Positions 5,193 to 22,055 of a stretch of 64,000 bases of DNA are shown piece after piece (position 1 is the stretch's first letter; every line of letters begins with the position of its first letter). This DNA comes from Anaerolineae bacterium (GTDB lineage: Bacteria; Chloroflexota; Anaerolineae; Anaerolineales; Villigracilaceae). Location: positions 1 to 64,000 of the forward strand of contig JAFLCE010000004.1 of the NCBI GenBank assembly GCA_017303655.1, read 5' to 3'. The notes below the pieces were generated by a model that did not search any database, was not told where the DNA came from, and saw only the letters and a list, made by a program, of their open reading frames with translations. The translations under genes were made by a program, and so were the position numbers.

Positions 5193-5558
5193 ATGAATAT
5201 GAATCTAAAAGAGATTATTACTATTTGCCAAGGCGAAATACTCACGCCAGAATTGGATACGAACGTAAACATCCACGGTGGTTGTTGTGCCGACCTGATG
5301 AGCGACGTACTGGCGTACAGCCGTCCGCGGGCGGTACTGATCACCGGGCTGACCAACCCACAGGTAGTCCGAACCGCGCAGATCGCAGATTTCCGCGCCA
5401 TCATTTTCATCCGCGGGAAAAAGCCGCAGCCTGAAACCGTCGAGATCGCGCTTCATGAAAACATTCCACTCATCTCCAGCCCGCTTGGGATGTTCGAACT
5501 CAGCGGCATACTGCATGACGCCGGATTAAAAAGCTACGAAGGCAATGACACCAACTAA
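5193..5558 (+). CDS. DRTGG-domain protein (first copy), hydrogenase-associated
   Basis: A 121-residue protein similar to the stand-alone DRTGG-type domain proteins that accompany hydrogenase operons. It shares a GG-x3-DL-x-S-x-V segment (HGGCCADLMSDVLAY) with the paralogue at 6550, followed by alternating beta/alpha repeats. It is probably a nucleotide- or ligand-sensing domain; no enzymatic motif is seen. The ATG at 5193 lacks a strong Shine-Dalgarno sequence and a second ATG lies two codons on, so the start is approximate. It overlaps the next gene by 14 bp. Confidence 0.7.
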   Translation: MNMNLKEIITICQGEILTPELDTNVNIHGGCCADLMSDVLAYSRPRAVLITGLTNPQVVRTAQIADFRAIIFIRGKKPQPETVEIALHENIPLISSPLGMFELSGILHDAGLKSYEGNDTN

Positions 5559-6546
5559 TAAGCCCACCGAGCAGGAAAAGTTTGGGCGACATCGTCCAGT
5601 CACTGACCTTGATGCGCATGAGATCAACCGCATCGAGGAACTTTCGTATGACCTGAAGATCCACGAAGTGATGAATGCAAACGTTATCACCACTTCGCCG
5701 GATGTGCCCATTGCCAGTGTCTTGGAATTAATGCGGGTAAATCGCATCTCAGGTGTGCCAGTGGTACAAGATGAAAAACTGGTGGGGATTATCAGCCTCG
5801 AAGATATTGTTCGCGCTTTGCAAAGCAATGAACTCGCTGAACCTGTAAAAAAATATATGACCGGAAAATTGGTCACTGTTCGGCATTCAGATAGTATCGT
5901 CGAAGCCATCAAGAGATTTACCGAAAAAGGGTTGGGACGATTACCAGTTGTGGATGAAGCCAACAACCTGAAAGGCATCATCACCAAAGGCGACATCACA
6001 CGCGGAATCCTGCGTGCAGTGCAACATGATTACAAAGAAGAAGAAGTCCGCCGCTATCGAGCTAGTCACCTTTTTGAAGACATCAACTCTGACCGCACCA
6101 CGCTTGTCCTTCGATACAACATCAAAGTTGGAGATTTCACGCACGGGGGCAACGCCTCTAGCCATATCAAACGCGCATTGCTCCGCCTCGGTGCAGACCA
6201 GCAACTGGCACGGCGCTGCGGCATCGCCGCCTATGAAGCGGAAATGAATCTCATTATTCATACCACCCACGGCGGCGTCCTCAAATTGGAAGTGGAACCA
6301 CATCGCATCATCATCTCCACCAGCGATGATGGTCCTGGCATTGCAGACATTGAAAAAGTTCTGCAGCCCGGCTACTCCACCGCCAGCGACAAAGTCCGCG
6401 AAATGGGGTTTGGCGCGGGCATGGGTTTGGTCAACATCAAACGCTGCGTAGACAAAATGGAACTCGAATCGACTCTCGGAAAAGGCTCCAAGCTCATCAT
6501 GCGCATCGCGGTTCCATCTGAAGTTCTTAAAGGCAAAAGAGAATAA
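5545..6546 (+). CDS. CBS-pair protein fused to a GHKL ATPase (anti-sigma-like)
   Basis: A 333-residue fusion. Residues about 40-160 form two CBS motifs (IHEVMNANVITTSPD; VKKYMTGKLVTVRHSD), which normally bind adenine nucleotides. Residues about 190-330 form a histidine-kinase-like ATPase related to RsbT/RsbW: an N-box-like AYEAEMNLIIH, the G1 box DDGPGIAD and the G2 box GFGAGMGLVNIK. No phospho-acceptor histidine domain is present, so a switch-kinase or anti-sigma role is more likely than a classical sensor. This fusion is typical of [FeFe]-hydrogenase operons. It may report adenylate charge to hydrogenase expression or assembly; that is inference. Confidence 0.85.
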   Translation: MTPTNKPTEQEKFGRHRPVTDLDAHEINRIEELSYDLKIHEVMNANVITTSPDVPIASVLELMRVNRISGVPVVQDEKLVGIISLEDIVRALQSNELAEPVKKYMTGKLVTVRHSDSIVEAIKRFTEKGLGRLPVVDEANNLKGIITKGDITRGILRAVQHDYKEEEVRRYRASHLFEDINSDRTTLVLRYNIKVGDFTHGGNASSHIKRALLRLGADQQLARRCGIAAYEAEMNLIIHTTHGGVLKLEVEPHRIIISTSDDGPGIADIEKVLQPGYSTASDKVREMGFGAGMGLVNIKRCVDKMELESTLGKGSKLIMRIAVPSEVLKGKRE

Positions 6547-6549
6547 ACC

Positions 6550-6888
6550 ATGAACCTGCAAACCATCATCGATCAACTTCAACTCACCGTCCTCACCTCA
6601 CCGCGTGACTTCACCAGCATCACCCCGCAAGGTGGTTATACATCAGACTTACTCTCCTGCGTGATGGCAGGTGCAAAGGTCAACAACCTTTGGATCACCT
6701 TGCAAGCGCACTTAAACATCGTTGCCGTTGCAGCCATGCTGGATGTTGCCGCCGTTATCATCACCGAAAACGCCATCCCCGACGAAGCCACTCTTGCAAA
6801 AGCCAATGAACAAGGCGTTATCCTGCTTTCCACGTCCAAGTTCAGTTATGAGATCTGTGGAACGCTTTGGGAAATGAACATCCGGTAG
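6550..6888 (+). CDS. DRTGG-domain protein (second copy)
   Basis: A 112-residue paralogue of the protein at 5193, carrying the related QGGYTSDLLSCVMAGA segment and a C-terminal STSKFSYEICGTLWE that matches SSPLGMFELSGILHD in the first copy. No catalytic residues are recognised. The gene starts 4 bp after the CBS-ATPase and ends 2 bp before the PHP gene, so it is in the same operon. Two diverged copies flanking the ATPase suggest a heteromeric sensory complex, which is inference. Confidence 0.7.
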   Translation: MNLQTIIDQLQLTVLTSPRDFTSITPQGGYTSDLLSCVMAGAKVNNLWITLQAHLNIVAVAAMLDVAAVIITENAIPDEATLAKANEQGVILLSTSKFSYEICGTLWEMNIR

Positions 6889-6890
6889 AA

Positions 6891-7643
6891 ATGAAAACCT
6901 TTCGCGCGGACCTGCACGTTCATACCGTCCTCTCGCCCTGCGCAGAGGTGGAAATGATCCCGCCTCTCATTGTGCAAACGGCGCTTGAGAATCAAATTGA
7001 CATCATCGCCATCACCGACCACAACGCCAGCGCCAATGTGCGTGCCGTTCAAAAAGCAGCAGATGGAACCGGGCTCACCGTCCTACCTGGAATGGAAGTG
7101 CAGACTCACGAAGATGTTCACATGCTCTGTCTCTTCGCCTCTTTGCTGGACCTCGAAAGCTGGCAGCACAAAGTGGACCTTTCCCTCCCCGATGCCTTAA
7201 ACCAGCCCGAGCATTTTGGCGAGCAATATGTTGTGGATGAAAACGGTGAATACATTCGCACTGAAAACAGATTGTTGTTAACTGCTACAGAATTTTCAAT
7301 TGAAGAAGTCATTGAGCAGGTAAATGAGTTGGGCGGTCTTGTCATCCCTGCGCATGTAGACCGCAAATCATTCGGCTTGTTCCCCACCCTTGGCTTCCTA
7401 GCAGATTGGTGGCACTTCCCCGCTCTGGAAATATCCCGCCACATTACCGCAGAAGCTCTTCATGAAAAATTCCCATCCTCCAAAAATAATGTGCTTATCC
7501 AAAGCGGAGATGTACATCGGCTGGACGAGTTCTTAGGAACAACACATTTCGAGATCGAGGCACCAACGGTTGATGAGATAACCAAAGCGTTTTGTGGGGA
7601 AAATCAACGCAGTGTGCAGATCAAACGTCCCAAAATTGACTGA
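6891..7643 (+). CDS. PHP-family metal-dependent phosphoesterase
   Basis: A 250-residue PHP-domain protein. Metal-ligand motifs are visible in order: DLHVHTVLSPC, ITDHNAS, PGMEVQTHEDVHMLCLF, IPAHVDR and SGDVHR. The family hydrolyses phosphoester bonds using two or three metal ions, and the natural substrate here is unknown. I chose the ATG at 6891, just after the previous stop, over an upstream TTG at 6867. PHP genes sit at this position in many [FeFe]-hydrogenase operons, so it may process a regulatory nucleotide or cofactor. That is inference from context. Confidence 0.85.
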   Translation: MKTFRADLHVHTVLSPCAEVEMIPPLIVQTALENQIDIIAITDHNASANVRAVQKAADGTGLTVLPGMEVQTHEDVHMLCLFASLLDLESWQHKVDLSLPDALNQPEHFGEQYVVDENGEYIRTENRLLLTATEFSIEEVIEQVNELGGLVIPAHVDRKSFGLFPTLGFLADWWHFPALEISRHITAEALHEKFPSSKNNVLIQSGDVHRLDEFLGTTHFEIEAPTVDEITKAFCGENQRSVQIKRPKID

Positions 7644-7675
7644 CAACCTACACCACAGTCATATGACATCCTTCA

Positions 7676-7704
7676 TTGACTGATTCGGGATGAACCATTA
7701 AACT
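7676..7704 (+). promoter_or_regulatory. Candidate promoter of the hydrogenase catalytic operon
   Basis: TTGACT at 7676-7681 and TAAACT at 7699-7704 are separated by 17 bp, a good sigma-70-type arrangement. Transcription would start near 7711, inside the Rex operator. An alternative uses TTGTGA (7709-7714) and TATAAA (7732-7737), also with a 17-bp spacer, but it leaves almost no leader. Confidence 0.5.
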
Positions 7705-7708
7705 ATGT

Positions 7709-7726
7709 TTGTGAAAATTATCACAA
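7709..7726. promoter_or_regulatory. Rex-type operator of the hydrogenase catalytic operon
   Basis: TTGTGAAAATTATCACAA matches TTGTGA-N6-TCACAA, with the same half-sites as the copy at 5057. It covers the predicted transcription start of the promoter at 7676-7704 and ends 19 bp before the HydC ATG, a position suited to repression. Rex would couple hydrogenase synthesis to NADH/NAD+. The rex gene itself is not in the window. Confidence 0.8.
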
Positions 7727-7745
7727 TACTTTATAAAGGCATACA

Positions 7746-8252
7746 ATGACACGGCGACAAAGAGAAATCCCTGAGAACGACCCCCTGAACAAAGAAAACC
7801 TAAAACTGCTGATAGACCAGGCGATCCTTGAAAACAAAGACCGCCCCGGCGCAGTGATGCTTGTCTTGAATGAAATCCAGTCAAAGATCGGACACGTCTC
7901 CCCTTGCATGCAAGTGTATATTGCACAGAGCTTGAAGGTCCCGCAGGGGCAAGTCCACGGCGTGGTGACGTTCTATTCATTCTTCAAGACCAAACCCAAG
8001 GGCAAACACACCATCAAGTTCTGCTTGGGTACGGCTTGCTATGTGGCAGGTGTTCCGCAGCTGATTGAAAAAGCCAAGCAGATGTTGAACATTGACCTCG
8101 GCGAGACCACGCCTGACGGACAAATCACGCTCGAAGAATGCCGCTGCGTAGGTGCATGCAGTCAGGCTCCTGTCGTCGTGGTGGACGAAGAAGTACAAGG
8201 CAAATTACGCCCGAATAAGTTCCCGCAGGTGTTGAAGAAGGTTCAAGGATAA
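7746..8252 (+). CDS. hydC: HydC / NuoE-like [2Fe-2S] subunit, first copy
   Basis: A 168-residue thioredoxin-fold [2Fe-2S] protein of the NuoE/HydC family. The cluster ligands are C93-x4-C98 (CLGTAC) and C134-x3-C138 (CVGAC). A helical N-terminus carries the family segment GHVSPCMQVYIAQSL. In trimeric hydrogenases this subunit docks on HydB and carries an off-pathway or relay cluster next to the flavin. It is the first gene after the Rex-controlled promoter and lies 2 bp before the ATPase gene. The paralogue at 11129 shares only the core motifs, so the two copies are not a recent duplication. Confidence 0.9.
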   Translation: MTRRQREIPENDPLNKENLKLLIDQAILENKDRPGAVMLVLNEIQSKIGHVSPCMQVYIAQSLKVPQGQVHGVVTFYSFFKTKPKGKHTIKFCLGTACYVAGVPQLIEKAKQMLNIDLGETTPDGQITLEECRCVGACSQAPVVVVDEEVQGKLRPNKFPQVLKKVQG

Positions 8253-8254
8253 CC

Positions 8255-8824
8255 ATGCGCGAAATCGCTTTGCATCTTTTGGATATTGCTGAAAACAGCG
8301 TCGCGGCAGAAAGCCGAAATATCCGCATGGATGTGATCGAAGACCTGCATAATGACTTGCTCAAAGTCAGCGTGACTGATGACGGCAGAGGCATGGATGT
8401 AGAAACTGCCAAGCGTGTTCTTGATCCGTTCTACACCACGCGCACCACACGCAAAGTTGGGTTGGGCATTCCGCTCTTAAAGTTGGCAGCAGAAAGCTCG
8501 GGCGGCGGATTAACTCTGGAAACAGAATCAGGCAAAGGCACGCGCATTGAGGCGTCGTTCCGTCACAGTCACATTGACCGAATGCCGCTGGGCGATGTCA
8601 GTACTACATTCCTGACCTTGCTGGTTTCTTATCCGCATATTCATTGGATCTTCAAATATCAAACGACAGCAAACAACGGCTCAACCAAAACGTTTGAGTT
8701 GGATGATGAAGAAATCAAAGCCGTACTCGGTGACACGTCATTTACTGAGCCGGATGTGTTGAAAATTTTACGCGGGATGATTGAGGAAGGCATTGCCAAC
8801 CTCACCCTGCAAACGGAGTTTTAA
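8255..8824 (+). CDS. Hydrogenase-associated GHKL ATPase
   Basis: A 189-residue protein. Residues 1-110 form a histidine-kinase-type ATPase domain: an N-box-like LLDIAENSVAA, DDGRGMD, and a GLGIPLLKLAAESSGG lid. About 80 residues with no recognised motif follow. It has no transmembrane, sensor or phospho-acceptor part. The same small ATPase sits between hydC and the [2Fe-2S] protein gene in many [FeFe]-hydrogenase operons. The role is unproven; signalling or assembly is likely. Confidence 0.8.
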   Translation: MREIALHLLDIAENSVAAESRNIRMDVIEDLHNDLLKVSVTDDGRGMDVETAKRVLDPFYTTRTTRKVGLGIPLLKLAAESSGGGLTLETESGKGTRIEASFRHSHIDRMPLGDVSTTFLTLLVSYPHIHWIFKYQTTANNGSTKTFELDDEEIKAVLGDTSFTEPDVLKILRGMIEEGIANLTLQTEF

Positions 8825-8836
8825 AAAGGAGTAATC

Positions 8837-9205
8837 ATGCCAGCCATTAAATCGTTGGAAGAACTGAAGCGTGTTCGTGAAGAAGCGCTTGCCAAGAAAC
8901 AAATGAAAGCCGCGCCAGGAAGCGTGCAAGTGATCGTTGCTATGGGCACGTGTGGAATTGCAGCCGGTGCGCGTGACACGATGAAGAGCGTGTTGAATTA
9001 CATCGAAGCGCAACACCTTAGCGGCGTGACCGTGACCCAGACTGGGTGCATGGGCATGTGCGAGCAGGAACCGATCGTGCAGGTCATCTTTGGTGAGCAA
9101 GCTAAGGTGACGTATGGAAAAGTCAACGCCGATGTTGCGGCGCAGATCATGAAACAGCATGTGCAAGGCGGAATGCCTTTGAAGGACCACGTTTTACCTA
9201 TATAA
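8837..9205 (+). CDS. Thioredoxin-like [2Fe-2S] ferredoxin-domain protein
   Basis: A 122-residue protein with an N-terminal helix followed by a thioredoxin-like ferredoxin fold. It contains GTCGIAAGA (C39) and GCMGMC (C71, C75). Only three of the usual four ligand cysteines are obvious, so cluster binding may need another residue or partner. Homologues are encoded beside hydB in trimeric hydrogenase operons. It is preceded by AAAAAGGAGT. A palindromic repeat separates it from hydB. Confidence 0.8.
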   Translation: MPAIKSLEELKRVREEALAKKQMKAAPGSVQVIVAMGTCGIAAGARDTMKSVLNYIEAQHLSGVTVTQTGCMGMCEQEPIVQVIFGEQAKVTYGKVNADVAAQIMKQHVQGGMPLKDHVLPI

Positions 9206-9208
9206 CCA

Positions 9209-9278
9209 TGTCATGCTGAGTGAAACGAAGCATCTCTACGGTTATCTAAGAGACCCTTCGCTAACGCTCAGGGTGACA
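9209..9278. repeat. REP-like imperfect palindrome before hydB
   Basis: A 70-bp inverted repeat. The left arm starts TGTCATGCTGAG and ends GAAGCATCTC; the right arm runs GAGACCCTTCGCT to CTCAGGGTGACA. Read on the other strand the right arm gives TGTCACCCTGAG, so the arms match with a few changes. It resembles dispersed intergenic palindromes common in bacteria. It sits inside the operon and may form an mRNA hairpin that separates hydB from upstream genes. Confidence 0.75.
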
Positions 9279-9297
9279 GTATCGGAGAATAGTTTTT

Positions 9298-11079
9298 ATG
9301 CCTTTTTATCGATCTCATGTTTTAGTATGTGTTGACCCAGAGTGCCTTGCTAAGGGTGCTCATGAAGTGGTAGATGCTTTGCAAGACGAACTCGTTGCAC
9401 AAGGTTTATTGGACGAGATTCAAGTTCTTGAAACCTCCCGCATTGGTAGTTGTTCTGATGGTCCTGAAATGATGGTCTACCCGGATGGTGTGCATTATGT
9501 CGGCATGACCGCTGACGATGTGCCATTCTTGGTGGAAGAGCATTTTCTCAAAGGACGTATTGTTGAGAAGTTCCGCGAAGTTCATAAGCCAATCGTTGAT
9601 GAAGAGTTAGGTCCGCTGCGCCCGAAGGAAGTGCGTGTGGTGCTTCGCAACTGCGGCGAGATCGACCCGATGAACATCGAAGATTATCTCGCTGTGGATG
9701 GTTATCAGGCGCTGGGCAAAGTCATTGGTGAGATGACACCGGAACTGGTTATTGAAGAAGTGACCAAATCCGGTCTGCGCGGACGTGGTGGCGCGGGCTT
9801 CCCTGCCGGACGCAAATGGGGACTCACCCGCCAGGTACCTGGTGATATCAAGTACATGGTCTGCAATGCAGACGAAGGCGACCCGGGCGCATTCATGAAC
9901 CGCCGTGTGTTGGAAGGTGATCCGCATTCGGTCATTGAAGGCATGATCATCGGCGCGTATGCCGTCGGTGCGAGCTATGGTTACATCTACTGCCGCGCAG
10001 AATATCCGTTGGCGGTGGAAACGCTCAATGTAGCGATCACTCAGGCGCGCGAATTTGGCTTTTTGGGAAATAACATCCTCGGCACCGACTTCAACTTTGA
10101 CCTTGAAGTGCGCGTGGGGGCAGGGGCATTCGTGTGCGGCGAAGAAACAGCTCTGATGGCATCTATCATGGGTAAGCGTGGAGAGCCGCTTCCGCGTCCT
10201 CCATTCCCTTCTGTGAAGGGCGTGTGGGGTAAGCCGACAAATAACAATAACGTGGAGACCTACGCCAACATTCCGCAGATCATCGTCAAAGGTGCGGACT
10301 GGTACGCCAGCATGGGCACGGAACGCTCGAAAGGCACCAAGACCTTCGCAGTTGGCGGCAACGTTGCCAAGCCGGGTCTGATCGAAGTACCGATGGGCAT
10401 TACCCTGCGCGAAATTATTTTCGATGTAGCGGGCGGAATCAAAGACGGACGCACATTCAAAGCCGTGCAAACCGGCGGACCCATGGGCGGATGTCTCACC
10501 ACGGAACACCTTGATCTACCGCTCGATTACGAAGCGCTGAGCCAAGCCGGTTCGATGATGGGTTCAGGCGGTTTGGTTGTGATGGATGAAACCTCCTGCA
10601 TGGTGGACATCGCCCGCTTCTTCATGGATTTTACGCAAGCAGAGTCTTGTGGGAAGTGTACGCCCTGCCGTGTGGGTACGCGCCGCATTTTGGAACTACT
10701 GCAGAAAATTTGTGATGGCAAAGGTGAGCATGGCGATCTCGAAAAACTCGAAGATCTGTGCCACGAAGTTGCCAAGAACAGTCTATGCGGACTTGGTCAA
10801 GGCGCGCCGAATCCTGTACTCAGCACGCTCAAGCACTTCCGTCATGAGTATGAAGCGCATGTGTATGACAAGAAATGTCCGGCAAAAGTCTGCCGCCCGC
10901 TCATTCGCTTTGAGATCGAGCAATCCTGCACTGGTTGTATGGTCTGCGCCAGGAACTGTCCGGTGGAAGCCATCAGCGGCGAGCGCAGGCAGATGCATCA
11001 CATTGATCTCAACAAATGCATCCGTTGCGGCATTTGTATGCAAGTTTGTAATTTCAACGCAGTATCGGTTTTGTCGTAG
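9298..11079 (+). CDS. hydB: HydB-type flavoprotein with ferredoxin tail (NuoF-like, first copy)
   Basis: A 593-residue NADH- and FMN-binding subunit. The N-terminal thioredoxin-like domain (1-95) has C11, C16 and C52 but lacks the fourth usual ligand (RIGSC instead of a GCxGxC-type motif). The FMN/NADH core has GRGGAGFPAGRKW (162-174) and CNADEGDPGAF. A [4Fe-4S] site is formed by C451, C454, C457 and C497. The C-terminal tail holds two [4Fe-4S] motifs (C544/547/550/554 and C574/577/580/584). This architecture is that of HydB from electron-bifurcating hydrogenases, where FMN splits electrons between NAD(H) and ferredoxin. Bifurcation here is inference. Confidence 0.92.
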   Translation: MPFYRSHVLVCVDPECLAKGAHEVVDALQDELVAQGLLDEIQVLETSRIGSCSDGPEMMVYPDGVHYVGMTADDVPFLVEEHFLKGRIVEKFREVHKPIVDEELGPLRPKEVRVVLRNCGEIDPMNIEDYLAVDGYQALGKVIGEMTPELVIEEVTKSGLRGRGGAGFPAGRKWGLTRQVPGDIKYMVCNADEGDPGAFMNRRVLEGDPHSVIEGMIIGAYAVGASYGYIYCRAEYPLAVETLNVAITQAREFGFLGNNILGTDFNFDLEVRVGAGAFVCGEETALMASIMGKRGEPLPRPPFPSVKGVWGKPTNNNNVETYANIPQIIVKGADWYASMGTERSKGTKTFAVGGNVAKPGLIEVPMGITLREIIFDVAGGIKDGRTFKAVQTGGPMGGCLTTEHLDLPLDYEALSQAGSMMGSGGLVVMDETSCMVDIARFFMDFTQAESCGKCTPCRVGTRRILELLQKICDGKGEHGDLEKLEDLCHEVAKNSLCGLGQGAPNPVLSTLKHFRHEYEAHVYDKKCPAKVCRPLIRFEIEQSCTGCMVCARNCPVEAISGERRQMHHIDLNKCIRCGICMQVCNFNAVSVLS

Positions 11080-11088
11080 TCACTTTTT

Positions 11089-11110
11089 CTGTTATTGCTC
11101 GCAATGACAG
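11089..11110. repeat. Short hairpin between hydB and the second nuoE-like gene
   Basis: CTGTTATTGC and GCAATGACAG form a 10-bp stem with one wobble pair and a two-base centre. The GCAATGAC arm resembles dispersed GTCATTGC palindromes, so it may be a repeat remnant. No U-tract follows, so it is unlikely to be a full terminator. Confidence 0.45.
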
Positions 11111-11128
11111 AAGTAGAAAAGAGGTTGA

Positions 11129-11620
11129 ATGTACGCTCCAGCGGTTGAACGTGAAATCAAGGAAGTCGTTCAGGAAGCCATTGAAAAGCATGGGTACGGA
11201 CGCGATGCGTTTATCCCGATCCTCAGCGAGATCAACCATGAACTTGGGTATATCCCTGCGGAAGCAATTCGAGAAGTGAAGGCACAGATCAATCATGATG
11301 GCAGTTTCGTCTCACAAGGACAGTTGTACGGGCTGGCGAGTTTTTACGACATGCTTTCCACCCAGCCGCGCGGACGGCACGTCATCAAGTTCTGTGAGAA
11401 TGCGCCCTGTCATATCGTGGGCGGCAAAGTCATTTGGGATGCCCTGCGCGAAACACTTGAACTTGACAATGGCGAAACCACGCCTGACAAGAAGTGGACG
11501 CTCGTCACCACATCGTGCATTGGCTTGTGCAGTGTCGGTCCCGTGTTATTAGTTGATGATGACATGTACGGCAATGTCACAGTCGAACAACTGCCCGAAA
11601 TTTTGGGGCATTACGAATAG
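11129..11620 (+). CDS. NuoE/HydC-like [2Fe-2S] subunit, second copy
   Basis: A 163-residue NuoE-family protein with C89-x4-C94 (CENAPC) and C130-x3-C134 (CIGLC), the canonical spacing, and the typical N-terminal HELGYIPAEAIREV helix. It is closer to standard NuoE/HoxE than the copy at 7746. It lies 9 bp before the second NuoF-like gene and probably forms its own pair with it. A second flavin/[2Fe-2S] pair in one hydrogenase operon is the unusual point. Confidence 0.9.
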   Translation: MYAPAVEREIKEVVQEAIEKHGYGRDAFIPILSEINHELGYIPAEAIREVKAQINHDGSFVSQGQLYGLASFYDMLSTQPRGRHVIKFCENAPCHIVGGKVIWDALRETLELDNGETTPDKKWTLVTTSCIGLCSVGPVLLVDDDMYGNVTVEQLPEILGHYE

Positions 11621-11629
11621 GAGCCAGCC

Positions 11630-13273
11630 ATGAAAACCAAACGTGCCATGATGTTGGTCTCCACAGATCCAGAGAGTATGAGGCTTGGGGCGAGCGAACT
11701 GCTCGAAAATCTGAAAGAGGCGTTGGAAGCCTATCAATTGCAAGACGAAGTCGATATCGCCGAGATCAGCGACATCGAGCGGACAAATATCCTCCCCTTC
11801 GTTATGGTCTACCCCGAAGCCGCCATCTATGGACCGGTGAAACCGGGCGATGCGCGCTACTTGGTGGAAGAACATCTTTACAAGGGACGCGTTGCTGAGG
11901 ATTTGCTTGCTCCGCCCAAACAGTTGACGGGACAGATCGGTTCTCTCCGCGCTCATAAAGGATACAACCCATCGGAGCAGCGCATCGTCCTTGAGCGTGC
12001 CGGGCGCATCGACCCGGAGAACATTGAGGATGCGATCGCCCATAATGCATATGAAGCGCTCGGCAAAGTGCTGAGCGAAATGACGCCGGAGCAAGTCCTT
12101 GACATGGTTGAACGCTCAGGTTTGCAAGGACGTGGCGGCGCAGGCTTTTTGACAGGACGCAAATGGAAATTTGTGAAATCGGCAAAAGGTGAAAAGAAAT
12201 ACGTCATCTGCAATGCCGATGAGAGCGAGCCGGGCACGTTCAAAGATCGCATCGTACTTGAAGGCGACCCGCATGTGATACTCGAAGCGATGGCAATTGC
12301 CGGGTACGCCGTCGGTGCAGACGAAGGCTACGTTTACATTCGTGGTGAGTATGGTCATGCGTATCGCCGTCTGCAACATGCGATCGAACAGGCTGAGGAA
12401 TTTGGTTTCCTCGGCAAGAACATTTTCAATACGAACTTTAACTTTCACATTCATCTGCACGCGGGTGCAGGCGCGTATGTCTGCGGTGAAGAGACCGCGC
12501 TGATCGAATCGATTGAAGGCAAGCGCGGCGAGCCACGCCCTCGCCCACCCTACCCCGTCACACGCGGATTGTGGAACCGACCAACAACAGTCAACAATGT
12601 GGAGACGTTGGCGAATATTCCCGCTATCATCTGCAACGGCGCAGAGTGGTATCGCTCATTCGGCACACCGTCCAGCCCGGGTACGAAGGTCTACACCATC
12701 ATGGGCAATGTCAACTTTAGCGGCGTGATCGAAGTACCCATGGGCATTACCTTGCGCGAGGTCATCAACATCTATGCCAAAGGCATGAAACCCGGCAGTG
12801 TGCTGAAACTTGCTCAAACTGGCGGCAGCAGCGGCTCGATCATCCCCGCTTCGTTACGAGACGTTCCAATGGACTTCGAGTCCTTCCGCAAAGCAGGTGT
12901 TTCACTTGGTTCCGGCGCATTACTGATCTGTGACCAACACACCTGCATAGTAGACCTAGTGAAAGTACTTTTGCAATTCTTTCGCTTTGAGTCGTGCGGC
13001 AAATGCACACCCTGCCGCGTGGGCACGCAACGCTCCTATGAGATCGTGGATCGCATCTCGAAGGGACAGGGCAAGTTGGAAGATTTAGATACGCTTCAAA
13101 ACCTGATCTCAGAAATGGAACGCGCCTCGAACTGCGGGCTTGGTCAGACCGCCACAGTGCCGATCCGCGACATGCTCAAGCATTTCCGCACTGAGGTAGA
13201 AGCGCACATTCAGTTGGGAAGTTGCCCGAATGGCGTGTGTGAAATGAATTTAGTAGCCGAACATATTGGATAA
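11630..13273 (+). CDS. NuoF-like flavoprotein without ferredoxin tail, second copy
   Basis: A 547-residue NADH-binding flavoprotein. It keeps the FMN/NADH core (GRGGAGFLTGRKW near 168-180; CNADESEPGTFKDR, the NuoF-type version) and the [4Fe-4S] cysteines C456, C459, C462 and C502. The N-terminal thioredoxin-like domain (1-95) is present but has no cysteine, so it cannot hold a cluster. The protein stops after the [4Fe-4S] domain, without the ferredoxin tail of the first copy. It should exchange electrons with NAD(P)H but not directly with ferredoxin through a C-terminal domain. Its signature motifs differ from the HydB at 9298, which suggests separate origins. Confidence 0.9.
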   Translation: MKTKRAMMLVSTDPESMRLGASELLENLKEALEAYQLQDEVDIAEISDIERTNILPFVMVYPEAAIYGPVKPGDARYLVEEHLYKGRVAEDLLAPPKQLTGQIGSLRAHKGYNPSEQRIVLERAGRIDPENIEDAIAHNAYEALGKVLSEMTPEQVLDMVERSGLQGRGGAGFLTGRKWKFVKSAKGEKKYVICNADESEPGTFKDRIVLEGDPHVILEAMAIAGYAVGADEGYVYIRGEYGHAYRRLQHAIEQAEEFGFLGKNIFNTNFNFHIHLHAGAGAYVCGEETALIESIEGKRGEPRPRPPYPVTRGLWNRPTTVNNVETLANIPAIICNGAEWYRSFGTPSSPGTKVYTIMGNVNFSGVIEVPMGITLREVINIYAKGMKPGSVLKLAQTGGSSGSIIPASLRDVPMDFESFRKAGVSLGSGALLICDQHTCIVDLVKVLLQFFRFESCGKCTPCRVGTQRSYEIVDRISKGQGKLEDLDTLQNLISEMERASNCGLGQTATVPIRDMLKHFRTEVEAHIQLGSCPNGVCEMNLVAEHIG

Positions 13274-13302
13274 AAAAATCCGGTAATTTTAAAGAGGATT
13301 AC

Positions 13303-15276
13303 ATGGTTCAAATAACGATCAACAAACAACAGATTGACGTCCCCGAAGGAACGACGGTTCTGCGTGCAGCAGAGATGGCGGGGATTAACATCCCACGTCT
13401 ATGCGACCACAAGGAACTAACCCCTTACGGCGGCTGCCGCTTGTGCATTGTGGAAGTACAGGGCGTGCGTGTGCCGATGGCATCTTGTACCCTGCCAGTC
13501 AGCAATGGCATGGTGGTGGAAACCGAAACTGATGCGCTCAAGAAGTCGCGTCAGTTCGTGCTCTCCATGCTGTTCAGCGAACGCAATCACTTCTGCCCGT
13601 TCTGCCAGGTCAGCGGCGGAGATTGCGAACTGCAAAACGCCGCCTATCACGAAGAGATGGCCCACTGGCCCATTCAACCAGGCTGGAGTGATTTCCCAGT
13701 AGATACCTCGCATCCATATTTCGTGTTGGATAACAATCGCTGCATCCTGTGCCGCCGCTGTGTGCGTGCTTGCGCAGAGATGGCAGGCAATTTCACTCTC
13801 TCAGTCGCAGAACGCGGCGCGAAGAGCATGATCGTGGCAGATACTGATATTCCGCTCGGCGATAGCACGTGTATCAAATGCGGTTCGTGTGTGCAGGTCT
13901 GCCCGACCGGCGCGCTGATCGACCGCACCAGCGCCTATCAGTCACAAGATAAGAATTTGCAGGAAATCAAATCGGTGTGCGTGGGCTGTTCTGTCGGCTG
14001 CTCGATCAAGATCATGGTGCGCGATAACCGCATCGTGCGCATCGAAGGCGATTGGGATGGAGCCGTCAATCACGGCGTGATGTGTGAGTATGGACGCTAC
14101 ACCATCACCAATGAAAACCGCGTGCGTCTCACTGCTCCGTTGATGAAGAAGAATGGCAAACTCGAACCCGTCTCTTGGGATGAAGCGCTAAACGCTGTAC
14201 AAGAAAAAATGGCGAAAGAAAGTGTCGCGGCATTGGCGTCAACACGCTTGTCTGCGGAAACATTATCTGCTTTCAAAGATTTGTTCGAAACCAAACTTCA
14301 CAGCAAACTCGTGACCAGCATCGAAGAAGGCGTACCGACTGAGTCGGTGGCAAAATTCGCCGAAACGCACGAAGGCTTTGAAGGCAAACTCGACGCTCTG
14401 AAAACTGCGGACACCGTACTCTGCGTTGGCGCGAACGTCAATCGCAGCCACATGGTAGCGGGATTTTTATTCAAACGCAATTTAAACGCTGGTGTGAACT
14501 TGATCAACATCGACCCGGATGAAACTTCGCTGGATGAAGTTACCCGCGTCGCGCTTAAGCCGAAAGCTGGTTCTGACCATGTGCTGATTCTTGCGCTGCA
14601 AGCGATCATTGCAAAAGAAGAACTGGAACGCAAGTCCCTGAACATCACAGATGCTGATGCCCGCATCAAGAAAGCCGTTACTGAAACCGGCATCTCCGAA
14701 GCGGACTTGAGCAAAGCCGCGCGCTTGCTGGCACACGCCATCTCACCGATGATCGTCTTTGGTAAGGGCGTCACCGCTCAACGCGATGAAAAACTGATCG
14801 AAGCGCTGTACCAGCTTGCAGTCCAAGTGGGAGCCGTAGATGGCGAACGCAGCAACATCCTTTCGGTTAAGGGTGAAGCCAATAGCCAATCCGCTTCGTT
14901 GATGGGACTCGAGCAGCCATTCAATCCCAATGGTGAGAAGGTTATGTATCTTGCCGTTGGTGATGATTATGCCTCGAAGAAGTTGGTAGAGAAAGCATCC
15001 AAGTCTTCGTATTTGGTAGTGCAGGCGAGTTACGAATCGAAACTTACTGAGCAAGCCGATGTGGTGTTGCCGGTGAGTAATTGGGCAGAACAAGAAGGTC
15101 ATTACATCAATCTTGATGGACGCATCCGTAAAGCCGAGAAGGCTGTGACCGCGCCGGAGAATGTACGCGACAATTTGGACGTGCTGACCGAACTTGCCAA
15201 ACGAATGAAATTGACCCTGGATGCAGATTGGAAAAAATCCATCCGCGAACGCAAATCTAGCGTGGCATTGAATTGA
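13303..15276 (+). CDS. NuoG/HydA-like multi-cluster electron-transfer subunit
   Basis: A 657-residue iron-sulfur protein. Clusters in order: [2Fe-2S] C34, C45, C48, C62; His-Cys3 [4Fe-4S] H96, C98, C101, C108; [4Fe-4S] C147/150/153/157; [4Fe-4S] C190/193/196/200; and a further [4Fe-4S] C226, C229, C233, C261 at the start of a molybdopterin-oxidoreductase-like domain. That domain is short, and after the last cysteine reads MCEYGRY rather than the KGR-type motif of formate dehydrogenases, so it is probably catalytically dead, as in NuoG. It should wire the flavin subunits to the [NiFe] module encoded 7 bp downstream. No [FeFe] H-cluster motif is present. Confidence 0.88.
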   Translation: MVQITINKQQIDVPEGTTVLRAAEMAGINIPRLCDHKELTPYGGCRLCIVEVQGVRVPMASCTLPVSNGMVVETETDALKKSRQFVLSMLFSERNHFCPFCQVSGGDCELQNAAYHEEMAHWPIQPGWSDFPVDTSHPYFVLDNNRCILCRRCVRACAEMAGNFTLSVAERGAKSMIVADTDIPLGDSTCIKCGSCVQVCPTGALIDRTSAYQSQDKNLQEIKSVCVGCSVGCSIKIMVRDNRIVRIEGDWDGAVNHGVMCEYGRYTITNENRVRLTAPLMKKNGKLEPVSWDEALNAVQEKMAKESVAALASTRLSAETLSAFKDLFETKLHSKLVTSIEEGVPTESVAKFAETHEGFEGKLDALKTADTVLCVGANVNRSHMVAGFLFKRNLNAGVNLINIDPDETSLDEVTRVALKPKAGSDHVLILALQAIIAKEELERKSLNITDADARIKKAVTETGISEADLSKAARLLAHAISPMIVFGKGVTAQRDEKLIEALYQLAVQVGAVDGERSNILSVKGEANSQSASLMGLEQPFNPNGEKVMYLAVGDDYASKKLVEKASKSSYLVVQASYESKLTEQADVVLPVSNWAEQEGHYINLDGRIRKAEKAVTAPENVRDNLDVLTELAKRMKLTLDADWKKSIRERKSSVALN

Positions 15277-15283
15277 GGACCTT

Positions 15284-15826
15284 ATGACTAAACCGAAGAT
15301 CGCTACTGATTGGATGTGCGGCTGCGCAGGCTGCCACATGTCATTGCTCGATATGGATGAGCGCATTTTGAAGATCGTCGAACTTGCAGATTTGCGTTCG
15401 TCCCCTATCACAGATTTAAAAGAGCCTGATGCCAGCGGCGTGGACGTGGGCGTACTCGAAGGCGCTATCAACAATACCGCCAGCGAAGAAGTGGCACACC
15501 GAATGCGAGATCGCTCCAAGATTTTGGTGGCACTCGGCGACTGTGCTGTATTTGGCGGCGTGCCTGCGCTGAGAAATTTCTGCGGAGTTGAAGCGGCACT
15601 GCGCCGTGCCTATGTGGAAGCCGAAAGCAACGAAGCAGGCAGTCAAATCCCTAATGATCCTGAATTGGCGACCATGACACAAACACGTGCCATTCATGAG
15701 GTTGTCCCCGTCGATTACAACGTGCCGGGTTGCCCGCCCGACCCGGATGTGATCTTTTATGTGCTTTCAGAACTGGCGCAGGGGCGCAAGCCGGACCTGA
15801 AAGATGATTTATTGCACTGGCATTAG
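15284..15826 (+). CDS. hoxY: [NiFe] hydrogenase small subunit (HoxY/HydS-like)
   Basis: A 180-residue small subunit of the cytosolic group-3 type. One proximal [4Fe-4S] cluster is indicated by C14-x2-C17 (CAGC), C87 (GDCAVFGGVPALRN) and C150 (PGCPPDPD). There is no Tat signal and no medial or distal cluster, so the enzyme is soluble and passes electrons directly to the NuoG-like partner. It lies between that gene and the large subunit. The short length matches HoxY and the HydS of bifurcating [NiFe] enzymes. Confidence 0.93.
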   Translation: MTKPKIATDWMCGCAGCHMSLLDMDERILKIVELADLRSSPITDLKEPDASGVDVGVLEGAINNTASEEVAHRMRDRSKILVALGDCAVFGGVPALRNFCGVEAALRRAYVEAESNEAGSQIPNDPELATMTQTRAIHEVVPVDYNVPGCPPDPDVIFYVLSELAQGRKPDLKDDLLHWH

Positions 15827-15833
15827 AAGTGTT

Positions 15834-15868
15834 GAATACAGAATGCAGAATGATGAATGAGGAATAAT
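15834..15868. repeat. Five-unit heptad array abutting the large-subunit start
   Basis: Five consecutive 7-mers each begin with GAAT (for example GAATACA, then GAATGCA). The last units supply the purine-rich GAGGAAT used as ribosome-binding region for the ATG at 15871. Copy-number change here would alter translation-initiation spacing. Confidence 0.75.
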
Positions 15869-15870
15869 TT

Positions 15871-17298
15871 ATGACTACACAAAAAATTACCATTGAACCT
15901 GTCACGCGCATTGAAGGTCATGCCAAGGTGACCATTCACATGAAAGATGACAACACCGTTGACCATGCTTATATGCACGTCAACGAGTTCCGCGGTTTTG
16001 AAAAATTCTGTGAAGGGCGTTTGTACTTTGAAATGCCACAGATCACGCCGCGCATTTGTGGCATCTGCCCGGTGAGCCATCACCTTGCGGCTGCCAAAGC
16101 CAGTGATGCGTTGACGGGGCAAACTCCGCCGCGCCCGGCAAAACTCCTGCGCGAATTGATGCACATGGGCCAAGTCATTCAAAGTCATGGCATGCACTTC
16201 TTCGAACTGGCTGGTCCCGACCTGTTACTTGGTTTCGATGCCTCACCGGAAATTCGCAGTGTAGTGGGCTTGATCGGTGCGAATCCCGAATTGACGGTCA
16301 AAGCGGTGCAGTTGCGCAAGTTCGGTCAGGAGATCATCAAAACCCTTGGTGGTCGGCGCTTGCACCCAGTATTTGCTGTGCCGGGCGGCGTGAACAAAGC
16401 CTTAACGATACAGGAACGCGACTCTATTCTGCAAGGTGTGGACACTGCTGTTGAAACGTTGCAGCTGGGCATCCAGATCATGAAGGATTGGGCAGCGAAG
16501 AATATGGAAGATATCAACAAGTTTGCCGTCTTCCCCACTGGCTATTTCGGTCTGACCACCCCAGAAAACGGACTTGAACTTTACGACGGCGATATCCGCC
16601 TGATCAGCCGCGAAGGCAAGGAATTGGAACGCTTCCAGGTTACGAATTATCTCGACCATATTGCGGAACACGTAGAGCCGTGGTCCTACCTCAAATTCCC
16701 ATATTACAAAAAACTGGGCTATCCCGATGGGGTCTATCGCGTCGGTCCGCTGGGGCGCTTGAACCTCGCCGAGAAAATTGATACGCCGCTGGCAAATGAA
16801 GAACTCAAGATCTTTAAGAGTCTCAACAACGGCAAACCTGTCGAGAACACCTTGTACTATCACTATGCCCGTCTGATCGAAGCCTTATTCGCAGTCGAAC
16901 GTGCGCGCATGCTGTGCGAAGACAAAGATATCACCAGCACTGACATCCTTAATACGCGCAAGAATTACACCGGTCATGGTGTCGGCGTACTCGAAGCCCC
17001 GCGCGGAACACTCATCCACGATTACACGGCGGATGAGAACGGCAAACTGCTGAAGGTGAATCTGATCGTTTCGACCGGTCACAATAACTGGGCGATGAGT
17101 AATGCGGTAGACAGCGTCGCCAAGACCTACGTGAAGGGACCGGACGTCAGCGAAGGAATGCTCAACCGTGTCGAAGCCGCCATCCGCGCGTATGACCCGT
17201 GCCTGTCCTGTTCCACTCATGCCGTCGGGCAGATGCCCATTCAGGTTGACTTTATTGCCTCAGACGGTACAATGATTAAGACACTGAAACGTGATTAA
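15871..17298 (+). CDS. hoxH: [NiFe] hydrogenase large subunit (HoxH/HydL-like)
   Basis: A 475-residue catalytic subunit. The L1 motif [11 protein letters not shown] gives C63 and C66; the L2 motif DPCLSCSTH gives C444 and C447, ending at H450. Together they ligate the Ni-Fe(CN)2CO site. The conserved E15 in RIEGH near the N-terminus is present. After H450 comes a 25-residue tail that should be cut by the maturation protease encoded at 17871. The family is group 3 (soluble, NAD(P)-linked). The reaction is reversible H2 oxidation or evolution, and the fermentative context favours evolution, which is inference. Confidence 0.95.
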
Positions 17299-17352
17299 AG
17301 TTTAGAGGTGTTGTCGTCTCTCGTTCCATCTACTGAACCAAGGAGTTCAATC

Positions 17353-17799
17353 ATGACGACTGTCCGAAAAATTATAGAAAACAAAGCCCGCACAGAAGTG
17401 TTCACCGTTCCTATTGATGCCACGGTTCTAAGCGCTTTGAAAGTAATGGATGAAAGCAATGTCGGGGCTGTGTTGGTGACGGAGAACGAGAAGATCGTAG
17501 GCATCTTCACCGAACGGGATTATGCCCGGCGGGGTGAACTCAAAGGCAGGCACGCCGAAGATACTCTCGTCCACGATTTGATGAGCACAAGCCTTGTGAT
17601 GGTTAAACCAGAGACATTACTAACAGAATGCGCCGATCTGATGTACAAATATCACGTCCGACACCTGCCGATTGTAGACAAGGATAAATTGATCGGCATC
17701 GTCTCAATCCGCAGGCTGGCAGAAGCGTTGCTAGCTGAAGATAAAGGGACGATCTCCAAACTTGAGCATTACATTCTCGGCACAGGATATGGCGAGTGA
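17353..17799 (+). CDS. Stand-alone CBS-domain pair protein (first copy)
   Basis: A 148-residue protein consisting almost wholly of two CBS motifs (VFTVPIDATVLSALKVMDES; LVMVKPETLLTECADLMYK) with the typical GIFTERDYARR and GIVSIRRLAEAL ends. I chose the ATG at 17353 because AAGGAG precedes it at 17340; an in-frame upstream ATG lacks such a site. CBS pairs bind AMP, ATP or similar ligands and regulate partners. It lies between hoxH and the maturation protease and is clearly paralogous to the protein at 24315. Confidence 0.8.
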   Translation: MTTVRKIIENKARTEVFTVPIDATVLSALKVMDESNVGAVLVTENEKIVGIFTERDYARRGELKGRHAEDTLVHDLMSTSLVMVKPETLLTECADLMYKYHVRHLPIVDKDKLIGIVSIRRLAEALLAEDKGTISKLEHYILGTGYGE

Positions 17800-17870: not shown

Positions 17871-18371
17871 ATGAAAAAAATTTTACTATTAGGCTATGGG
17901 AATCCCGACCGGGAGGATGATGGTGTTGCCTGGCATATCCTGCGGGCATTGGCAGTCAAAATGGGACTGCCCGCACCTGATTCGTACGAAGATGATTTTC
18001 CTGAAAACCCACATGTTGATTTCGGCTTCTATCTTCAATTGACGCCGGAAATGGCGGAAGATATTTCTGAGTATGAATACGTCTGCTTTGTGGATGCGCA
18101 CACGGGCAATATTCCAGAGGAAGTGCGCATCATTGATGTGGAAAGTGATTTTCAAAAGTCGCCGTTCACGCATCACCTCACAGCACAATCACTGCTTTCC
18201 ATTTGCGAAACTTTATATAACACCAAGCCCGAATCTGCACTGCTTTCAGTACGCGGATATCGCTTTCTGTTCTCACGGACACTCTCCGAGCCAACATCCA
18301 CGCTGGTGACGGAAGCCGTGGAATTGGTCTGGGCGTGGATGAATGCCCGAGAATCACTGAAACAGGCTTGA
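17871..18371 (+). CDS. Hydrogenase maturation endopeptidase (HyaD/HoxW type)
   Basis: A 166-residue member of the HyaD/HybD peptidase family. It has the N-terminal GYGNPDREDDGVAWH motif carrying an acidic nickel-sensing residue, VDAHTG in the centre, and the HHLTAQSLL segment with a metal-ligand histidine. The enzyme checks nickel in the immature large subunit and removes its C-terminal tail. The natural target is HoxH at 15871, which has a 25-residue extension. An AGAGGTTGT ribosome-binding region precedes the ATG. Confidence 0.88.
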   Translation: MKKILLLGYGNPDREDDGVAWHILRALAVKMGLPAPDSYEDDFPENPHVDFGFYLQLTPEMAEDISEYEYVCFVDAHTGNIPEEVRIIDVESDFQKSPFTHHLTAQSLLSICETLYNTKPESALLSVRGYRFLFSRTLSEPTSTLVTEAVELVWAWMNARESLKQA

Positions 18372-18411: not shown

Positions 18412-18756
18412 ATGCATGAACTAGCCGTCACCGAATCCTTATTAAAAATTGCGCTTGACTATGCTGAAAAAGCAAATGCCAAGCAAGTCACTACTCTGAA
18501 CATCGTCATCGGCGAGCTCTCGAGCATGGTGGATGATTCCATTCAGTTCTATTGGGAGACGATCGCCAAAGATACAATCGCCGAAAAAGCTGTGTTGAAC
18601 TTTCGCCGTATTCCGGCAGAGTTGCAATGCATGACCTGTTTTACAAAATATCACCCCACTGATAAGGAACTTATCTGCCCGCAATGCAGCGGCGTAGGTG
18701 CCAAGATCCTCGCGGGGGAAGAGTTCTTTCTAGAGACCATTGACATAGAAAGTTGA
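18412..18756 (+). CDS. hypA: HypA nickel metallochaperone
   Basis: A 114-residue HypA. The N-terminal MHE binds nickel, and the zinc loop is formed by two CxxC motifs (CMTC and CPQC) near residues 70-95. It delivers nickel to the large subunit together with HypB, which is encoded next. The length is standard. Confidence 0.95.
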   Translation: MHELAVTESLLKIALDYAEKANAKQVTTLNIVIGELSSMVDDSIQFYWETIAKDTIAEKAVLNFRRIPAELQCMTCFTKYHPTDKELICPQCSGVGAKILAGEEFFLETIDIES

Positions 18757-18839: not shown

Positions 18840-19496
18840 ATGACCCAAAGAATCCAAGTTGTAGAAAATATTTTAAATGCCAATGACCGCCTCGCGGAAG
18901 AAAATTTCGCGCGCATCGAAGCAGCGGGTGTATTCTCTATCAATATCATCGCTTCGCCTGGCGCAGGCAAGACCTCGCTGATCGAAAAAACATTGCCGTT
19001 ACTTAAAGACAAATTACGCGTTGCCGCCATCGATGGCGATATCGCTACCTCCATTGATGCAGATCGTGCGGCGGCGGCGGGAGCGGGAGCCTCTATTCAG
19101 ATCAACACGGGCGGAGATTGTCATCTCGATGCGGTCATGTTACGCGGTGCGCTCGAACAACTCGACCTTACGCAGTTCGATCTGCTCATTGTTGAGAATG
19201 TTGGCAACCTCGTTTGCCCGGCAAACTTTAAACTTGGCACACACAAAACTGTGCTGGTGGCATCTGTACCTGAGGGCGATGATAAGCCGTATAAATATCC
19301 CGGCACTTATCGCGGCGTGGATGCGCTCGTCGTCAACAAGATCGACCTGCTGCCCTACGTAGACTTCCGCATGGATTACTTCACTCAAGGTGTGCAAGTC
19401 CTCAACCCAAACGTCACCACATTCCCAATTTCCTGCCGCACGGGTGAAGGTCTCGATGCCTGGGTGAGTTGGCTCATTGATCGCGCAAGGAAATAA
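18840..19496 (+). CDS. hypB: HypB GTPase for nickel insertion
   Basis: A 218-residue SIMIBI-class GTPase. The Walker A is SPGAGKTS, the metal site contains GGDCHLDA, and the specificity motif is NKID. It lacks the histidine-rich N-terminal nickel store of some homologues. It hydrolyses GTP to drive nickel transfer from HypA. The stop overlaps the hypF start by one base. Confidence 0.95.
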   Translation: MTQRIQVVENILNANDRLAEENFARIEAAGVFSINIIASPGAGKTSLIEKTLPLLKDKLRVAAIDGDIATSIDADRAAAAGAGASIQINTGGDCHLDAVMLRGALEQLDLTQFDLLIVENVGNLVCPANFKLGTHKTVLVASVPEGDDKPYKYPGTYRGVDALVVNKIDLLPYVDFRMDYFTQGVQVLNPNVTTFPISCRTGEGLDAWVSWLIDRARK

Positions 19497-21799: not shown

Positions 21800-21800
21800 A

Positions 21801-22055
21801 ATGTGTTTAGGAGTTCCCGGCAAGATCGTGGATGTTTATGAAAAAAACGGTTTGAAAATGGCGAAGGTCGATTTTGGGGGAGTCTTCCGTGAGGCATGTT
21901 TGAGTTATGTGTCCGAAGCAACTGCTGGCGAGTATTGCATTATTCATGTGGGTTTCGCGATCAGCTTATTGAGCGAAAAAGATGCAATGGAAACGTTGGA
22001 ACTTTTAAAAGAGATGGGGACGTTCGAAGAAGAGTTAGGAACGGAAGCGCCGTGA
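21801..22055 (+). CDS. hypC: HypC chaperone
   Basis: An 84-residue HypC with the essential N-terminal MCLGVPGKI, whose Cys2 binds the Fe(CN)2CO unit with HypD and delivers it to the large subunit. The start lies 1 bp after hypF, and its stop overlaps the GTG of hypD. Confidence 0.95.

Follow-up and report, generated by a model that had tools for sequence, protein, structure and literature searches.

Why a single hydrogenase operon should encode two different NuoE/NuoF pairs is the question raised by the first 64,000 nucleotides of contig JAFLCE010000004.1 of an Anaerolineae bacterium (Chloroflexota; assembly GCA_017303655.1), a stretch here called the window. Thirteen genes lie on the + strand at 5193-17298 with intergenic gaps of at most about 100 bases, and no terminator-like sites were found on that strand within these limits. 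Their order, place, and strand agree with a preliminary description of the locus, and family searches backed the gene names given there, two of them with scores slightly under the cut-offs. The large subunit and an alignment of F2, the second NuoF, served as queries against 396 genomes of the class (227 with a large-subunit match at 1e-60), and 68 loci, hand-chosen from the matches, were fetched. In thirty of these (L031-L060), the identity of the [NiFe] large subunit is 60% or higher, and 16 of the 30 carry HydB together with the second pair, E2-F2, so that the arrangement is not due to chance. The presence of a HydABC-type module, a [NiFe] catalytic part, and two flavin modules in one operon, as previously proposed, was supported. 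The HydABCSL kind of enzyme is already known, and the new feature is the E2F2 pair. The explanation that we favor, with a little more belief than doubt, is that one HydA-S-L core would be served by two NADH heads, one (HydB) bifurcating with ferredoxin and the other (E2/F2) using NADH only.

The catalytic core was examined by structure and family searches. HydL, the [NiFe] large subunit (15871..17298; PF00374), has its best Protein Data Bank (PDB) match in the NiFe-HydABCSL enzyme of Acetomicrobium mobile (7t2r_D of 7T2R, 573 bits). The next match, a methyl-viologen-reducing hydrogenase, scored 408 bits, and 5XF9 scored 406 bits. HydS, the small subunit (15284..15826), matches PF01058 and, below the cut-off, the NCBIfam family VhuG (127 bits). 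HydA (BfuA; 13303..15276; 657 amino acids [aa]) is NuoG-like, contains a molybdopterin domain, and best matches 7t2r_A (282 bits; next, 241 bits). Nineteen Cys assigned to clusters A1 to A5 are kept in the window and in 38 of 38 rows scoring above 300 bits, which include one sequence (L081) not from such an operon. A trimeric [FeFe] hydrogenase has a HydA with an H-cluster domain, and this HydA has none. An [FeFe] subunit elsewhere in the same genome was rejected as well, since a search for the catalytic domain PF02906 gave 0 matches in its 172 contigs (93.55% complete). A BfuA with the A1 to A5 Cys and no H-cluster, together with [NiFe] subunits S and L, is what marks a NiFe-Bfu enzyme, and all of these are present here. 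Judged by sequence, HydC, HydB, the NuoG-like HydA, and the [NiFe] subunits are a NiFe-HydABCSL ("NiFe-Bfu") hydrogenase.

The first head consists of HydC (BfuC; 7746..8252), a NuoE-like protein of the E1 clade with four [2Fe-2S] Cys, and HydB (BfuB, or F1; 9298..11079), a NuoF with a flavin mononucleotide (FMN)/NADH site and two C-terminal Fer4 motifs. The best PDB match of HydB is 7t2r_B, at 841 bits. Its B1 ligands are CCCC, its B2 ligands are CCHCC (C434, C472, H521, C527, and C532 in its own numbering), and a ferredoxin arm supplies eight Cys for B3 and B4. HydB contains PF01512, PF10531, PF10589, and PF00037, and HydC contains PF01257, as expected of a NiFe-Bfu enzyme; we take these Pfam families to correspond to the InterPro domains named for it (FMN, SLBB, 4Fe-4S, Fer4, and thioredoxin-like). 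The ligands that define B1, B2 (C438, C476 or T, H525, C531, and C536), B3, and B4 are likewise present. The four-Cys B5 [2Fe-2S] motif is incomplete, reading C, C, Arg, C. Because B5 alone departs from the strict definition, we regard the window enzyme as a variant that would work like NiFe-Bfu. A HydB/HydC core that contains FMN and six clusters, B5 among them, is the published definition of the Bfu family (PMC9304861, as far as its accessible text goes).

The second head is encoded immediately downstream. E2 (11129..11620; PF01257, 134.7 bits) is NuoE-like, and its four [2Fe-2S] Cys are kept in the window and throughout the 42 rows assigned to E2, a few of them from other phyla. F2 (11630..13273) has the NuoF domains without Fer4, and its best PDB match is also 7T2R_B, at 573 bits. 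Among 39 F2 proteins of the class, the window's included, the four B1 Cys are kept in every one, and C438, H525, C531, and C536 (B2-type positions, A. mobile numbering) are kept in 37, the exceptions being L167 and L168. F2 probably carries a B2-like cluster, to go by these ligands. Neither the B5 Cys nor a ferredoxin arm occurs in any of the 39. What we take to be the motifs for FMN and NADH show no variation across an alignment of 15 rows, and the N-terminal thioredoxin-like region has no Cys. An AlphaFold2 model of F2 from 15 sequences had a mean predicted local distance difference test score of 69, too weak for cluster geometry.

Phylogeny separates the two heads. In a careful NuoF tree (50 rows, 412 columns), the 13 F2 rows form one clade (support, 100/99), and the HydB rows group apart from them with A. 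mobile HydB and HoxF (100/100). A quick tree of 91 rows gave the same split, and a NuoE tree of 78 rows gave an E2 clade (97) and an E1 clade (99). A recent duplication of HydC/HydB, which the preliminary description had named as evidence against its proposal, is ruled out by these three trees, and F2 is, on this sequence evidence, an old NuoF lineage. A single origin of E2F2 across phyla was also considered and not adopted. The second NuoF of L072, L073, L075, L076, and L078 joins F2 at 88 in the quick tree, a grouping that the careful tree does not resolve, and that of L077 does not group with F2; kinship to F2 is suggested for L073, L075, and L076. Among the open-licence PMC papers listed in literature searches, no title or abstract start described an additional NuoE/NuoF pair within a Bfu operon.

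Signature residues also differ between the two heads. In the accessible text of PMC7311640, bifurcating and NADH-only beta subunits are separated by residues given in T. maritima HydB numbering, and in a non-bifurcating subunit position 232 is T or S, position 234 is K, S, or A, and GGPSG is absent. All 39 F2 proteins have T/K at these positions, the NADH-only pattern, and none has GGPSG (GGSSG in the window), so F2 falls on the published non-bifurcating side. The bifurcating pattern, A/M, is that of 43 of 48 HydB sequences; the other five comprise three with A/A, L058, whose frame is broken, and L059, a short NuoF. The B2 ligands were tried as a further mark of bifurcation and were ruled out, as at least four are kept in armless HoxF (L061, L062, L064, and L066) and in short armless NuoF (L074, L084, L087, and L088). 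The B2 His is stated to be absent from non-bifurcating homologs in the part of PMC9304861 that is accessible. The four HoxF, which have the B2 set, A/M, and GGPSG and no arm, contradict that statement if they do not bifurcate.

The distribution of E2F2 indicates how closely each head is tied to the core. Besides the 16 loci with HydB and E2-F2 (in two of which, L038 and L039, the pair stands before HydC rather than after HydB), L031-L060 include one with E2-F2 without HydB (L046), one with an F2 fragment (L045), one with only the NuoG-like, small, and large subunits (G-S-L; L036), and 11 without F2. Among ten loci of about 50% identity (L061-L070), nine are Hox-type. HydB stands directly before HydA-S-L, with no E2F2, in seven loci (L033, L043, L052, L053, L055, L056, and L057). 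This arrangement, and the fact that HydB and HydL both have their best match in the A. mobile HydABCSL enzyme, identify HydC/HydB as this [NiFe] module's own head. The earlier view that the [NiFe] module had arrived with E2F2 as its own NuoE/NuoF pair is not borne out, given these seven loci and the occurrence of E2F2 beside formate dehydrogenase. Of 57 places with a full-length F2 (at least 780 bits; contig-cut rows in G310 and G385 left out), 34 have a HydL of this type within 12 kb, and at 7 it lies elsewhere or on another contig. FdhA follows F2 in L152 (with one unassigned open reading frame between), L162, L164, and L185, with TIGR01591 scores of 796, 833, 644, and 850 bits (cut-off, 666 bits, so that L164 is below it); in L040 and L050, F2 and HydA have FdhA between them. 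These patterns indicate that E2F2 is a mobile extra, which the relatives, judged by their gene orders, keep, move, or lose as a unit. In a phylum sample of 400 genomes whose class make-up is not stated, 13 (the window's included) had F2 at 1e-220 or better, all of the window's class, and the best named F2 match is an Anaerolineaceae bacterium (L071). In other phyla, second NuoE/NuoF pairs occur beside [FeFe] HydA in one Cloacimonetes genome (L075) and one Elusimicrobia genome (L077), and two Bipolaricaulota (L073 and L076) have such pairs within [NiFe] operons.

Losses of the heads are reciprocal. F2 is absent genome-wide from three genomes that keep HydB-HydA-S-L, namely, G111 (same genus, 99% complete), G280 (99%), and G320 (95%), where the best F2 matches are HydB itself. 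Conversely, E2-F2-HydA-S-L is present in G058 (95% complete; L181) and G110 (92%; L046), and a search with the window HydB found no armed HydB in either; the best non-F2 matches scored 553 and 634 bits, compared to at least 840 bits for the HydB type that accompanies F2. Those matches are NuoF without a ferredoxin arm (GGPLG), each in a NuoE/NuoF pair 5' of a split FdhA-like gene; these sets span L189:499-5640 and L190:2655-7945. From these reciprocal losses, each head appears able to serve HydA-S-L alone, subject to the incompleteness of the genomes. In Mantel tests, from which L044, L048, L073, L074, L075, and L087 had been dropped beforehand, the distances of F1, F2, HydA, and L co-varied over 20 loci (r of 0.82 to 0.92), and those of F1 and F2 co-varied over 33 loci (r of 0.77). 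A footprint of E2F2 on HydA was sought in a relative-rate test of the F2-less L033 against L032, and no specific effect was seen: the unique changes (L033/L032) numbered 35/18 for HydA, 14/6 for L, 17/7 for the CBS protein, and 11/20 for HydB.

From these parts, lineages, linkages, and reciprocal losses, all read from sequence, we infer the electron routes, the use of NADH, and the sharing of HydA as follows. The first head (HydC/HydB, with FMN, B1, B2, and the B3/B4 arm) would couple H2 to NAD+ and ferredoxin together, while the second (E2/F2, with FMN, B1, the E2 [2Fe-2S] cluster, and no ferredoxin arm) would exchange electrons with NADH alone. In both cases electrons would pass via B1 to A1 of the same HydA and then to the [NiFe] site in S/L. 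The path given for the A. mobile enzyme in the accessible text of PMC8880783 is FMN-B1-A1-A2-A3-S1-[NiFe]. As HydA has a single A1 docking cluster, the heads would probably take turns or sit on separate HydA copies within a dimer. H2 could then be made or used by the cell either with ferredoxin and NADH together or with NADH only, the latter being possible when partners keep H2 very low. Three redox ports, as foreseen in the preliminary description, are plausible (H2, NADH, and ferredoxin). NADH-only hydrogenases with such beta subunits exist, according to the portion of PMC7311640 that is accessible. If the proposal is correct, an operon with an armed head and an armless head that keeps four B2 ligands, both on one core, would offer a ready-made comparison for finding the cluster that causes bifurcation, as how the single FMN of Bfu enzymes splits electrons is still open. 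It would also explain in a simple way how fermenters of this class might move from NADH-only to ferredoxin-coupled metabolism of H2 (or formate) and back where partners hold H2 low.

Several observations weigh against this two-headed reading. With only one A1 cluster, a HydA cannot take both heads at once by the known mode of docking. The T/K and A/M residues track lineage, since nine of nine armless HoxF of the class also have A/M and GGPSG; moreover, HydB here has GGPMG (window) or GGPLG where the published motif is GGPSG. For the published F/Y criterion near FMN (Tyr at T. maritima position 367), the likelier column, placed provisionally in an alignment that has no T. maritima sequence, contains F as well as Y in each group and would not separate them; the window HydB has Y. 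The B5 motif of the window HydB has only three of its four Cys, and five of the 33 HydB beside an F2 end in a tail of GltD length, not a ferredoxin arm. At 16 of the 57 F2 places, no HydL of this type is listed in the genome, although some of these are cut by contig ends (G324 ends in HydA, S, and the start of L [L186], and G143 has a [NiFe]-type HydA [L154]). E2F2 is not specific to [NiFe] enzymes, since it also stands beside FdhA, and in G271 HydB-E2-F2 and G-S-L are on different contigs. In G058 and G110, the armless NuoE/NuoF pair on the FdhA-like operon might also serve the hydrogenase. Finally, the Mantel correlation is what shared descent gives, not a sign of contact, as the test was run without an unlinked control gene, and HydA is not specifically relaxed in the F2-less lineage.

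A different arrangement of the same parts would place both heads in one assembly, for example, as the halves of a dimer, one bifurcating and the other NADH-only, with the second flavin tuning the first. The A. mobile enzyme, described in the accessible text of PMC8880783 as a dimer of pentamers, offers a template for this, and the order HydB-E2-F2-HydA (or FdhA) is conserved across distant families. The state of B5 could be taken in the same sense: it is complete in none of the 33 HydB beside an F2 in the window's class (28 with an eight-Cys arm, 5 with a GltD-length tail) and complete in six without F2 (L053 to L057 and L060), as if F2 had made B5 dispensable. However, the decay lies on a single branch of the HydB tree and is therefore one event. 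It is also found without any F2 in L033, L043, and L052 (the full motif is also absent in L059 and in the broken L058), and in other phyla all four B5 Cys persist in a HydB that adjoins a second NuoF (L073, L075, L076, L077, and L078). L044 and L048 have a second, intact HydB further along. Since each head can also be lost without the other, we consider this arrangement rather unlikely. In a broader formulation, a bifurcating HydBC head and a non-bifurcating E2F2 head would be united in a single complex, seated on common HydA-S-L cores and, among some relatives, on formate dehydrogenase subunits as well; this seems somewhat less doubtful to us, and we put it forward tentatively. If it were true, the two-headed complex would be a hub for H2, formate, NADH, and ferredoxin that shifts between a coupled mode and an NADH-only mode.

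E2F2 might instead serve another enzyme, chiefly a formate dehydrogenase, and merely be carried along in the hydrogenase operon. The four loci with FdhA 3' of F2, and L040 and L050, would fit this. However, the window's FdhA lies about 50 kb away with a NuoE-NuoF fusion and a NuoG-like partner of its own, and in G058 and G110 E2F2 is the sole head beside HydA-S-L, the FdhA-like gene having another NuoE/NuoF pair; we judge this explanation unlikely. The many nucleotide-binding accessory genes of the operon would suit E2F2 as a non-catalytic NADH sensor or assembly factor acting with the DRTGG, CBS, and HATPase proteins, and E2F2 adjoins PHP, before HydC, in L038, L039, and L071. A non-catalytic role is nevertheless hard to reconcile with B1 and E2 [2Fe-2S] ligands kept throughout, with invariant FMN and NADH motifs, or with L046 and L181, which keep E2-F2-HydA-S-L where no DRTGG, CBS, or PHP gene was recognised; it appears quite improbable. 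We give as little weight to the view that the operon joins two unrelated enzymes, of which one would be an orphan HydC/HydB head and the other an ordinary Hox-like NADH hydrogenase (E2F2-G-S-L). The order E2-F2-G-S-L is like that of HoxEFUYH and occurs without HydB in L046 and L181, but HydB directly precedes G-S-L in the F2-less loci, and in the true Hox operons of the class HoxF is of the HydB clade and HoxU has about 250 aa, which sets them apart from F2 and from HydA with its 657 aa.

The proposed two-headed hydrogenase can be compared with known systems. It shares with the A. mobile enzyme (7T2R) the HydABCSL subunits, the cluster sets apart from B5, and the best PDB matches of L, HydB, and HydA, and differs from it in the incomplete B5 motif. 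The A. mobile preparation has five subunits, and its operon adds HydD, HydP, and HisK, with no mention of a second NuoE/NuoF in the accessible text of PMC8880783. The non-bifurcating HydB/HydC of Syntrophomonas wolfei and Syntrophus aciditrophicus, as far as described in the part of PMC7311640 that is accessible, resemble F2 in having T/K, no GGPSG, and no ferredoxin arm. In contrast to those subunits, F2 keeps the four B2 ligands in 37 of 39 members, has the Cys-free N-terminal region, and accompanies a bifurcating-type head with a [NiFe] or formate module. HoxEFUYH (group 3d) likewise joins an NADH diaphorase head to a [NiFe] pair, and its order resembles E2-F2-G-S-L. However, HoxF belongs to the HydB clade and not with F2, HoxU is short, and HydL is nearer to 7T2R than to 5XF9, so the window operon, with neither a HoxF of the Hox clade nor a short HoxU, is not of that type. 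FdhFeFe-Bfu of Clostridium autoethanogenum, in what is accessible of PMC9304861, has a bifurcating core with formate and H2 sites, like L040 and L050; it differs from these in having [FeFe] where they have [NiFe], and they have two NADH heads.

Variation in the two heads and their partners was also seen among the relatives. In L040 (4188-15922) and L050 (721-15928), HydB, E2, F2, FdhA, and the [NiFe] HydA-S-L form one co-directional run, possibly a joint formate/H2 bifurcating enzyme, to judge from gene content. HydB is fused to a GltD/NfnB-like part (Fer4_20 and Pyr_redox_2) that replaces the ferredoxin arm at L034:9305-12379, L053:8988-12113, L059:12653-15901, and L058:9259-12210. HydB proteins of about 1,020 to 1,050 aa in L044, L048, L049, L050, L055, L056, L057, and L060 are fusion-like as judged by length only. 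The fusions resemble the DPD_II and FAD domains of BfuB in Hydrogenedentota, as these are presented in the accessible text of PMC11406978. A fumarate reductase/succinate dehydrogenase-type flavoprotein gene lies 3' of F2 at L155:10816-12537 (TIGR01812, 781 bits) and between E2 and F2 at L157:7408-9129 (765 bits). On a Halanaerobiales contig (L078:882-10475), HydC, HydB (1,011 aa), and an [FeFe] HydA come first, and another NuoE/NuoF with a further [FeFe] HydA comes next, so that each head is followed by a HydA of its own.

The remaining genes of the operon are as follows. Upstream of HydC are a DRTGG-domain protein (5193..5558; PF07085, 25.5 bits, cut-off 25.2), a protein with CBS and HATPase domains (5545..6546; PF00571 and PF02518), a second DRTGG-like protein (6550..6888; 22.1 bits, under the same cut-off), and a PHP-domain protein (6867..7643; PF02811). 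Between HydC and HydB are a HATPase protein (8255..8824; PF02518) and an HndB-like thioredoxin-fold [2Fe-2S] protein with three Cys (8837..9205; PF01257, 23.5 bits, cut-off 24.8; NF041612, 41.8 bits, also below its cut-off). The operon continues past HydL to about 24.2 kb on the + strand with a CBS-domain protein (17308..17799; PF00571), a hydrogenase maturation protease (17871..18371; TIGR00072, 55.1 bits, cut-off 47.45), HypA (18412..18756; PF01155), and further hyp genes (18840..24222). From their translations we take the latter to be hypB (18840-19496), hypF (19496-21799), hypC (21801-22055), hypD (within an open reading frame at 21896-23161), and hypE (23158-24222). A CBS gene is also found 3' of HydL in L031-L034, in two of them after the protease.

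Formate-related genes occur on both sides of the operon. FdhD/NarQ (PF02634) is encoded at 3850-4641 of the window, just 5' of the operon. The window has no FdhA above the family cut-off, and the sole one of the genome lies at C107:68675-70801. It belongs to a formate dehydrogenase set (L179:6613-11191, contig C107) about 51 to 56 kb past HydL, comprising a NuoE-NuoF fusion of 558 aa, a NuoG-like protein of 259 aa, and FdhA of 738 aa; genes that we presume to be corrinoid and methyltransferase-like adjoin it. Among the relatives, one in-frame TGA, of the kind expected where selenocysteine is encoded, interrupts the FdhA-like frame at L050:7940-7942, L155:17795-17797, L060:17261-17263, L035:1618-1620, L158:1260-1262, and L031:864-866; in L056, the one stop checked was TAG.

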